Assembly: GCF_000521785.1 (NCBI RefSeq)
Contig: NZ_JALZ01000003.1
Coordinates: 1 to 64,000, forward strand
DNA from: Roseivivax halodurans JCM 10272
GTDB taxonomy: Bacteria; Pseudomonadota; Alphaproteobacteria; Rhodobacterales; Rhodobacteraceae
Length of the DNA: 64,000 bases
Direction of reading: 5' to 3'
How positions within the stretch are numbered: position 1 is the first letter of the stretch; the number at the start of each line of letters is the position of its first letter. The notes below the pieces were generated by a model. It was not told the DNA's origin and searched no databases. It was given only the letters and a program-made list of their open reading frames with translations. Position numbers and translations under genes: made by a program. This document shows, piece by piece, positions 54,477 through 55,793 of this stretch.

Positions 54477-55106
54477 ATGACCCGCGCGCATATTCCCGGC
54501 ATTCTTGCCATGGCGGCCGTCGTCGTCGCCTCGAACATCCTCGTCCAGTTCCTGCTTGGCCAATGGCTAACTTGGGGGGCGTTCACCTACCCCGTCGCCT
54601 TCCTTGTCACCGACGTCATGAACCGCGTCTATGGCCCGGGCCCGGCCCGCAAGGTCGTGATCATCGGCTTCGCCGTCGGCGTGATCTGCTCGCTGATCGG
54701 CACGCAGATCCAGGGGGAATTCGGCCCGCTTGTGACCTGGCGCATCGCCCTCGGCTCCGGCCTCGCCTTCCTGACGGCACAGCTTCTCGACGTCGCGATC
54801 TTCGACCGGCTGCGCGAGGGGCGGTGGTGGCGCGCGCCTCTCGCCTCCACGCTGGTGGGCTCGTCGACCGACACGGCGATCTTCTTCACCGTCGCCTTCG
54901 CGGGGTTCCTGACCTTCATCGAACCCGGAAACGACGTCTCTTGGGCGGGCGAGACGCTGCCGCTTCTCGGAGTCGGCCCGGCGGTGCCCCTCTGGGTGTC
55001 GCTCGCGGTGGCGGACTGGCTGGTGAAGCTCGCGCTCGCGCTGATTGCGCTCGTCCCGTTCCGGGTGATCGTTTCGTGGGCACAGTCCCATCGCGCGGTG
55101 GCCTGA
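54477..55106 (+). CDS. Queuosine precursor transporter YhhQ
   Basis: VUT-family membrane protein of 209 residues with six or seven helices; the family imports queuosine precursors (preQ0/preQ1) for tRNA modification. Motifs: AFTYPVAFLVTDVMNRVYG (about 35-53), 'LTAQLLDVAIFDRLR' and VGSSTDTAIFFTVAF (about 130-144), which match YhhQ. No riboswitch could be identified in the 110-base leader. GGGAAG is upstream of the ATG at 54477. Confidence 0.88.
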   Translation: MTRAHIPGILAMAAVVVASNILVQFLLGQWLTWGAFTYPVAFLVTDVMNRVYGPGPARKVVIIGFAVGVICSLIGTQIQGEFGPLVTWRIALGSGLAFLTAQLLDVAIFDRLREGRWWRAPLASTLVGSSTDTAIFFTVAFAGFLTFIEPGNDVSWAGETLPLLGVGPAVPLWVSLAVADWLVKLALALIALVPFRVIVSWAQSHRAVA

Positions 55107-55170
55107 ACCGTCAGAATTCATTTGACCGCAAGGAATTCCGTGCCACCCTCCGGGGTAGGTTTTCAACATC

Positions 55171-55188
55171 AGAAAGGAGGTGATCCAG
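55171..55188 (+). promoter_or_regulatory. 18-nt extended Shine-Dalgarno complementary to the 16S rRNA 3' end
   Basis: AGAAAGGAGGTGATCCAG is an exact complement of the conserved tail of bacterial 16S rRNA (CTGGATCACCTCCTTTCT), much longer than a normal 4-7-base Shine-Dalgarno. It immediately precedes a GTG that opens an 18-codon frame. Confidence 0.7.
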
Positions 55189-55244
55189 TGTCGAGAGAAG
55201 CATTGGAGAGAGGTGTCGGAACAGTGCGGAGGATCGCCGGCTAG
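55188..55244 (+). CDS. 18-codon leader ORF behind the extended Shine-Dalgarno
   Basis: Frame GTG...TAG encoding VSREALERGVGTVRRIAG, 18 residues, overlapping the last base of the extended Shine-Dalgarno. The peptide is basic and has no hydrophobic stretch. It could be a leader peptide whose translation controls the downstream hairpins. I have no independent proof of translation; the evidence is the unusually perfect ribosome-binding sequence at the right place. Confidence 0.45.
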   Translation: MSREALERGVGTVRRIAG

Positions 55245-55343
55245 GGCAGCCCCTTGTCGGACGGTGGTCCGTATTGGCGACGGTCCTAACCGACCCCGCC
55301 TCCTAGTTCTCGAAGGGTCGCCCACGCTCCGGGCGGCCCTTTT
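55245..55343 (+). ncRNA. Structured leader/sRNA segment ending in a terminator before arfB
   Basis: Between the leader ORF and arfB are possible hairpins CGGAC-GGTG-GTCCG (about 55259-55272) and GGTC-CTAACC-GACC, then an intrinsic terminator. Together with the extended Shine-Dalgarno and leader ORF this looks like a small transcript of 150-200 nt. Not recognised as tmRNA, SRP RNA or RNase P RNA. Promoter unclear: two GAATTC sites flank a TTGACC near 55122. Confidence 0.4.
55315..55343 (+). terminator. Intrinsic terminator 30 bases before arfB
   Basis: GGGTCGCCC (55315-55323), 7-base loop, GGGCGGCCC (55331-55339), 9-bp stem with one G-U, then TTTT (55340-55343). It would end the leader transcript and attenuate arfB. 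Confidence 0.75.
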
Positions 55344-55373
55344 AGTTTGCCGCGACTATTGTAAGACGGGTCC

Positions 55374-55793
55374 ATGCTTCAGGTCAGCAACCGCATCGCT
55401 ATCGAAGACTGGGAGATCACGGAACAGTTCGTGCGGGCCTCCGGGCCCGGCGGGCAGAACGTCAACAAGGTCTCGACCGCCGTGGAGTTGCGGTTCGAGG
55501 CCGAGCGCTCGCCCAATCTGCCCGGCCCGGTGAAGGCGCGCCTGCGCCGCCTCGCGGGGCGGAAATGGACCAAGGACGGCGCGCTGATCATCCAGGTGGA
55601 CGAAACCCGCAGCCAGAGCCGCAACCGCGAGATCGCCCGCGAGCGGTTGGCCGATCTGATCGCCAAGGCCCTCGAAACGCCAAAGCGGCGCATTCCGACG
55701 AAGCCGTCCAAGACCCAGAAGCGCAAGCGGGTCGAGGCCAAGAAGGCCCGCGGGGAGAAGAAGGCCCTTCGCGGCAGGGTCGATCCGACCTGA
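55374..55793 (+). CDS. arfB: Alternative ribosome-rescue factor ArfB (YaeJ/ICT1-like)
   Basis: Peptidyl-tRNA hydrolase that frees stalled ribosomes. The 139-residue protein has the catalytic GGQ in ASGPGGQNVNKVSTAVEL (about 22-39) and the long basic C-terminal tail (about 100-139) that enters the empty mRNA channel. The ATG at 55374 lies 30 bases after an intrinsic terminator and has no Shine-Dalgarno; TAAGAC (55362-55367) six bases upstream could be a -10 for a leaderless transcript, with -35 CTTTTA (55339-55344) in the terminator's T-tract. Otherwise it depends on read-through from the leader. Confidence 0.92.
   Translation: MLQVSNRIAIEDWEITEQFVRASGPGGQNVNKVSTAVELRFEAERSPNLPGPVKARLRRLAGRKWTKDGALIIQVDETRSQSRNREIARERLADLIAKALETPKRRIPTKPSKTQKRKRVEAKKARGEKKALRGRVDPT

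Follow-up and report, generated by a model that had tools for sequence, protein, structure and literature searches.

A conserved complement of the 16S rRNA 3' tail followed by a short open reading frame suggests a ribosome-gated RNA gene in Alphaproteobacteria

In Roseivivax halodurans JCM 10272 an exact complement of the 16S rRNA tail, an 18-codon open reading frame (ORF) and a terminator lie directly in front of the ribosome-rescue gene arfB, and the question raised by this locus is whether the segment serves arfB or is a gene in its own right. It was analyzed within a window of 64,000 nucleotides (contig NZ_JALZ01000003.1, positions 1 to 64,000). An earlier note had read the segment as a regulatory unit of arfB that senses ribosome availability or stalling, and had offered an independent small-RNA or leader-ORF transcript as the alternative. 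The parts that it described were all found. The 18-nt complement is present and exact when compared with the 16S 3' ends of relatives, the GTG ORF follows directly, hairpins come after the ORF in the fold of 55160-55345, and the U-run of an intrinsic terminator ends at 55343, leaving a gap of 30 bases before the arfB ATG at 55374. The features of the locus are as follows.

54477..55106, + strand: Vut_1 transporter (PF02592, E 8e-30), upstream neighbour, outside the unit
55122..55127, + strand: -35-like TTGACC of the element's putative own promoter, from the enrichment of TTG[AC] in relatives
about 55145-55150, + strand: candidate -10 of this promoter, weak and placed by spacing
55158..55343, + strand: inferred transcript of about 185 nt, from the promoter, the terminator and the Rfam CC2171 alignment (55164-55340)
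55171..55188, + strand: 18-nt exact complement of the 16S rRNA 3' tail, AGAAAGGAGGTGATCCAG
55172-55186, + strand: class-wide conserved core GAAAGGAGGTGATCC, inside the 18-nt site
55184..55207, + strand: start-codon hairpin in the predicted fold, TCCAGTG (55184-55190) with CATTGGA (55201-55207)
55188..55244, + strand: 18-codon GTG ORF VSREALERGVGTVRRIAG, with GTG at 55188-55190 and the stop TAG at 55242-55244
55243..55254, + strand: stop-codon hairpin AGGG-CAGC-CCCT, with the last two bases of the stop codon in the stem
55296..55303, + strand: internal anti-Shine-Dalgarno CCGCCTCC, predicted to pair with the 16S complement (minimum free energy fold; columns 22-27/163-168 of alignment A1)
55312..55342, + strand: intrinsic terminator hairpin, then TAG (-22.3 kcal/mol; two-sided stem changes)
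55374..55793, + strand: arfB (RF-1 domain, PF00472, E 5.3e-22), downstream neighbour, judged to lie outside the unit

The 5' end of the putative transcript (55158) is an estimate from the promoter position, and the 3' end is placed at the terminator. The terminator was detected by a dedicated script and was not listed by a generic terminator scan, probably because its U-run pairs into the stem.

A search for the 16S tail in the window's own assembly found none, and the site was therefore compared with 16S 3' ends from four relatives (L179-L182), three of them congeners and the fourth from the same family. Their 16S genes terminate in ...GGCTGGATCACCTCCTTTCTAAGGAT, and the 3' ends read CTGGATCACCTCCTTTCTAAGGAT, the exact 18-nt complement of the window site. 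In the window's genome AAAGGAGGTGATCCAG occurs once and its reversed control not at all. Pairing of the site with the 16S tail was computed as -28.0 kcal/mol over 15 nt and -32.6 kcal/mol over 18 nt, against -8.7 kcal/mol for GGAGG alone. The core corresponds to the part of the 16S tail that is free, from helix 45 to the mature end.

A search of 190 class genomes for the 15-nt core, made without regard to a start codon, returned 58 copies, of which 31 look like 16S genes and the other 27 are elements. An ATG, GTG or TTG stands at nt 17-19 in 26 of these 27, and the remaining one has an ATG one base earlier. As a counter-case, a perfect 15-nt core in G390 (C126:6468-6488) has no start codon there. 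Judged from these sequences, the association of site and start codon is more than chance. By hand tally, G-U pairing with 16S is kept by 19 of 23 family-level transitions at core positions 2-14, where 6 of 13 possible transitions would be expected to keep it (p 4e-4); 12 of the 19 fall at nt 12 and five at nt 2, and the wobble argument for the core seems to lean mainly on the one position, nt 12. The core transversions, A to T at nt 2 in one family and A to C at nt 12 in the window's family, do not keep the pair. A further one, A to C at nt 7, belongs to a single chance-like sequence, in which the pair with 16S is lost.

Of 149 genomes sampled from the window's order, all of them rows of its family, 122 (58 of 73 genera) contain the pattern of site, start codon and TC with up to two mismatches. 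In the class the pattern was found in 103 of 372 genomes, 269 having no match. In a phylum sample it was present in 26 of 44 alphaproteobacteria versus 2 of 116 others, and both of the latter matches are chance-like, with two mismatches inside the core each; the reversed control pattern gave one match in the same sample (G647). A few chance-looking matches are also included in the counts, among them a second match in the window's genome and that in G387. When at most one mismatch was allowed and TC was not required, 83 of 385 class genomes matched. A scan of 84,980 species genomes returned at least 117 stretches, the 80 listed titles being alphaproteobacterial or unresolved proteobacterial bins. 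The collection comprises 172 unique elements, of which 168 were used in group counts; four with less than 200 nt of sequence were left out. As a rule a genome has a single copy of the gene. Two element types, one CC2171-like (L004) and one Sphingomonadales-like (L031), occur together in G036, so paralogous subtypes may exist; G585 and G578 have two matches each.

By sequence comparison, the window element is one of a kind of putative short transcript that is widespread in Alphaproteobacteria. The elements have in common the site, an adjacent start codon, a short ORF, a predicted folded body and mostly an intrinsic terminator, which the terminator finder missed in 22 of 168 elements.

The start codon is GTG in 93 and ATG in 79 of the 172 unique elements, the search having required TG. 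In the window the ORF frame is also open upstream to a TTG at 55122, and the conserved start is the codon adjacent to the site. Element groups were sorted by peptide pattern and not by taxonomy, so the fixed length of the ORF is partly conditional. All 39 Rhodobacteraceae-type elements have 18 codons (stops TAG 22, TGA 12, TAA 5; L152 is probably misfiled among these rows), as do 31 of 33 Sphingomonadales-type elements; the length is 14 codons in 7 of 7 of the Bradyrhizobium type and mostly 19-26 codons in the two Rhizobiales-type groups. Each group uses all three stop codons. The length was also checked by organism name, and was 18 codons in all 14 named Rhodobacteraceae elements and in all 19 elements from named Sphingomonadales that are complete (L074 is truncated where its stretch ends, and L106 duplicates L010). 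Two exceptions occur in the window's family. The ORF of L030 has 26 codons; L023, which is outside the 172, has a shortened site (GAAAGGAGGTGGCCA before GTG), and by eye its rearranged ORF (L023:1480-1680, - strand) still has 18 codons and the stop hairpin.

The stop codon is built into structure in most of the window's group. In a predicted hairpin with a CAGC-like loop the stop bases are paired in 27 of the 39 Rhodobacteraceae-type elements and unpaired in 12. Stop and partner are exchanged together (TAG with CT, TGA with TC or TT, TAA with TT), and the hairpin columns 92/103 and 93/102 of alignment A1 have eight two-sided changes each; the alignments took in 36 of 39, 22 of 33 and 24 of 38 rows. 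The reading frame is also kept open. Internal stops are absent from frame 0 of 38 distinct Rhodobacteraceae-type ORFs and present in 13 and 15 of them in frames 1 and 2, and the numbers for frames 0, 1 and 2 of 29 Sphingomonadales ORFs are 0, 8 and 3. The Bradyrhizobium ORFs were uninformative in this test, since they have no stops in any frame. No third-position excess was detected in the Rhodobacteraceae-type and Sphingomonadales ORFs; the peptide is therefore not what is conserved in these two groups, and a conserved protein product was rejected. The start and stop of the ORF are conserved and its peptide is not, which is how an ORF kept for the placement of ribosome start and stop would look.

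These results bear on a reading in which the element is a small mRNA with the peptide as its product, the long Shine-Dalgarno (SD) sequence merely giving strong translation. An open frame with fixed ends is what such an mRNA would have, and in five elements (L035, L038, L135, L056 and L057) the ORF has 54-59 codons and, by eye, begins like a secreted protein, with a signal-peptide-like start; in those lineages the peptide itself may matter. Against a peptide product stand the missing third-position excess in both groups tested, the differences between the peptides of different groups, and the coincidence of several conserved stretches of the Rhodobacteraceae ORFs with predicted paired bases. 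We consider this reading unlikely.

The proposed role in arfB expression was judged from gene neighbourhoods. Of the 172 loci in the collection, 34 have arfB downstream in the orientation of the element, namely 33 of 39 Rhodobacteraceae-type loci and L028, which comes from a genome of the same family. Its distance from the site is mostly 180-320 nt and in five loci 740-1135 nt. Of 123 loci of the remaining groups whose downstream sequence reaches 700 nt or more, 1 has arfB there, again from the window's family. Once, in a Hyphomonadaceae contig, arfB lies divergently upstream of the element. Outside the Rhodobacteraceae type, 60 of 125 loci have their next gene on the element's strand (16/38, 10/26, 19/32, 1/7 and 14/22), and no neighbour cluster, as defined by crude gene calls from the longest ORF, is common to all groups, small overlaps aside (cluster 7 comprises five Rhodobacteraceae-type loci, one Sphingomonadales-type locus and one other). 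The Vut_1 transporter upstream is likewise syntenic, with a cluster in 20 loci.

If the element were a cis-acting leader or attenuator, ribosome availability or stalling on the leader ORF would decide read-through into arfB. The regular position of arfB in Rhodobacteraceae-type loci and a terminator about 30 nt before the gene are in keeping with such a role, and the pairing of a candidate leader-arfB antiterminator is stronger than with shuffled arms (z -1.39). This candidate, drawn from the stop hairpin, is weaker than the terminator (-23.6 kcal/mol) and shows no co-variation (native -13.4, swapped -13.6 kcal/mol), and it was not upheld. A regulated same-strand gene directly downstream and conserved together with the leader, as expected of an attenuator, was not found, the next gene in the other groups often being on the opposite strand, and the five distant arfB genes also count against this arrangement. 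Regulation of arfB by the element is accordingly rated as quite improbable. The position of arfB looks like inherited gene order (synteny) in one family, and arfB becomes an unlikely target of the element.

A -35-like TTG[AC] lying between -60 and -38 of the conserved G suggests a promoter of the element's own. Of the 39 Rhodobacteraceae-type loci 34 have it, where 6.2 would be expected, and all but one of the 35 occurrences with listed positions lie at -47 to -51. Most Rhodobacteraceae-type elements can thus be credited, on sequence comparison, with their own -35-like box. With the motif chosen separately for each group, such a box was found in 24 of 27 Rhizobiales-2 loci (5.7 expected), 17 of 38 Rhizobiales-1 loci (5.7), 4 of 7 Bradyrhizobium loci (0.7) and, weakest, 15 of 33 Sphingomonadales loci (8.0). 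The earlier note had also placed a leaderless promoter in front of arfB. In 8 of 32 loci a TAnnnT begins 12-14 nt upstream of the arfB start codon, which lends that proposal slight support; the window is not among these loci, and its own TAAGAC does not fit. What survives of the earlier interpretation is the independent small-RNA or leader-ORF transcript, and what falls is the regulatory unit of arfB.

The element resembles a described RNA family. Rfam family RF01867 (CC2171) aligns over its full model to 55164-55340 at a relaxed threshold (E 1.3e-6), and the score of 37.3 bits does not reach the gathering score of 75 bits. The GAAAGGAGGUGAUCCAGUGUC block, the overall length and the 3' terminator hairpin align, and the window element has both the conserved GAAAGGAGGUGAUCC-start-UC block and the terminator hairpin of the family. 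It differs in lacking the helix that, in the family, joins CAUUGUC of the early ORF to GACAAUG ahead of the terminator; in the window this helix would contain non-standard pairs, and the site pairs instead with CCGCCTCC. Helix tests covered 128 elements. Pairing of ORF codons 2-5 with the pre-terminator segment gave z below -1.5 in 24 of 25 Sphingomonadales and 17 of 31 Rhizobiales-1 elements, in 4 of 31 Rhodobacteraceae-type elements (z -0.39, versus -1.58 and 17 of 31 for the CC2171-like group) and in 1 of 6 Bradyrhizobium elements (z 0.13). For a longer ORF stretch the counts were 17/25, 17/31, 3/31 and 1/6 in the same order of groups; the control windows score no worse in Rhodobacteraceae and Bradyrhizobium, and in Bradyrhizobium they score better. 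A universal helix between ORF and pre-terminator segment was rejected, being weak in Rhodobacteraceae and absent in Bradyrhizobium.

In 41 relatives RF01867 matched 29 at E <= 0.001, one of them above the threshold, and among 14 named control genomes it matched in Caulobacter vibrioides only. Four of 18 further loci passed the threshold (Methylobacterium, Bosea, Brevundimonas and Falsiroseomonas), and no other Rfam family was found on the elements in those 18 loci. Relaxed Rfam matches in the window to ctRNA_p42d, BjrC80 and Xoo8 were far below threshold and were dismissed. The threshold pattern indicates that the curated RF01867 covers one branch and that the window element would be a divergent relative, not a formal member; descent of all element groups from a single gene is only a possibility. 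Landt reportedly gave the first description of Caulobacter sRNAs in 2008. CC2171/RF01867 is mentioned in the accessible text on Rfam 15 (PMC11701678) and stands in a Mesorhizobium prediction table (PMC5596092, as far as accessible). Our literature search, mostly without full texts, found no paper on the present feature.

This relationship could be taken to mean that the element is simply a CC2171-family sRNA, non-coding and acting in trans, with an incidental ORF. The full-model match to a family described as an sRNA points that way, CCGCCTCC could pair with SD sites of mRNAs, and ncRNA regions of Caulobacter are reported as untranslated in the accessible part of a ribosome profiling study, which does not name CC2171 there (PMC4117421). 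An incidental ORF would, however, hardly have a start codon at 26 of 27 unbiased matches or a fixed stop for which all three codons are used, and we regard this explanation as very improbable.

The folding of the element was examined with regard to access to the site. The fold of 55160-55345 has a predicted energy of -88.6 kcal/mol (z -4.2), and 0 of 200 shuffles were as good. In the window the core is predicted to pair with CCGCCTCC, which lies close to the terminator; the start codon is inside a hairpin that occupies the mostly invariant columns 30-37/46-53 of alignment A1. The mean unpaired probability of the core in the predicted ensembles of Rhodobacteraceae-type elements is 0.01. Opening the window site was computed to cost 10.7 kcal/mol, leaving -17.3 kcal/mol for 16S binding; the median cost is 10.2 kcal/mol and the median net energy with 16S is -16.8 kcal/mol. 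Masking in cis has a z of -1.97 in the Rhodobacteraceae type, -1.82 in the Bradyrhizobium type and -1.49 in Rhizobiales-2. With -0.21 in the Sphingomonadales type and -0.64 in the Rhizobiales-1 type it is not beyond chance there, and universal cis-masking of the site was not upheld. Masking and helix thus differ by group, and the groups appear to share the site, the ORF and mostly the terminator, not one fold. Many Rhizobiales-1 ORFs (L002, L085 and L112 among them) contain a CTGGATCnTCGCCTC-like stretch, a partial copy of the 16S tail that could pair with the site, and Bradyrhizobium ORFs (L105 and L115) contain TCACCTC.

A site of this strength might act as a trap for 30S subunits, in which pairing with the whole tail holds idle subunits in a non-initiating complex and the ORF is hardly used. 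Pairing, at -28.0 to -32.6 kcal/mol, can take in all of the single-stranded tail and reach as far as the start codon, and in Rhodobacteraceae the start codon lies in a predicted stem. A stop codon that is fixed and exchanged with compensation points instead to real translation, and a single gene copy per genome makes stoichiometric trapping of most subunits unlikely. We think a trap improbable.

The reading that we favour, with slightly better than even confidence, is that the element is an autonomous, ribosome-gated RNA gene of about 185 nt whose output is the act of translation and not the peptide, arfB being next to it by synteny. The site would recruit 30S subunits through the complete 16S tail. 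In Rhodobacteraceae, where the same RNA is predicted to mask the site at an opening cost of about 10 kcal/mol, 30S pairing would compete with the mask, so that only a subunit with a free tail, which can offer up to -28 kcal/mol of pairing, would open it. Initiation and passage of the ribosome through the ORF may then unfold the 5' half of the RNA, and the ribosome would halt at the structured stop codon with that half opened. Unfolding could in turn change what becomes of the 3' half or what it pairs with, with changed stability, pairing via CCGCCTCC or release of the 3' part as candidate outcomes.

Our best guess as to the purpose of such a gene is that it senses ribosome availability. A more specific proposal, which we put forward only tentatively, is that many alphaproteobacteria have a dedicated RNA that senses free-tailed 30S subunits, whether idle, immature or without bS21. 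Its complement of the whole tail would be offset in some groups by a mask within the RNA itself, and the ORF would convert capture into a change of structure. To our knowledge there is no report of Alphaproteobacteria hiding the 16S tail in the manner involving bS21. On the favoured reading, an orphan sRNA family named from Caulobacter gains relatives across much of a bacterial class, and the CC2171-related RNAs would be mRNA-like, with an unusually long conserved SD sequence and an ORF in which start and stop, not the peptide, are what is kept.

Three known systems invite comparison. In Staphylococcus aureus, SD pairing is extended in the direction of the start codon, as at the present site, and bS21 is named as a hindrance to such extended pairing in Escherichia coli, according to the accessible text (PMC13009471). 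The S. aureus extended SD occurs in many mRNAs, unlike the one conserved RNA described here. Closer to hand among Alphaproteobacteria is rnTrpL-peTrpL, a dual-function, attenuator-derived sRNA that likewise combines a short ORF with a structured RNA (PMC10117765, accessible part). rnTrpL itself derives from the trp attenuator and lacks a leader as an mRNA, whereas the element carries a complement of the 16S tail and its groups have no downstream gene in common.

The nearest precedent in working, in our assessment, is rpsU of Flavobacterium. In F. johnsoniae rpsU, which encodes bS21, has an extended SD and is preferentially translated by ribosomes lacking bS21, according to the accessible text of that study (PMC9976891). 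The likeness lies in the gene number, as a rule one per genome, in an SD that is extended and exceptionally strong, and in long pairing with the 16S tail (PMC9976891, same limitation). The difference is that the ORF of the element encodes neither bS21 nor a conserved protein; it is an ORF of 18 codons, not one for a ribosomal protein that frees or hides the 16S tail. If the sensor proposal is true, the element would be the counterpart, without a ribosomal protein product, of the Bacteroidota rpsU sensor. Monitoring of the state of free 30S subunits by an RNA becomes a question that can be tested directly in common laboratory alphaproteobacteria.
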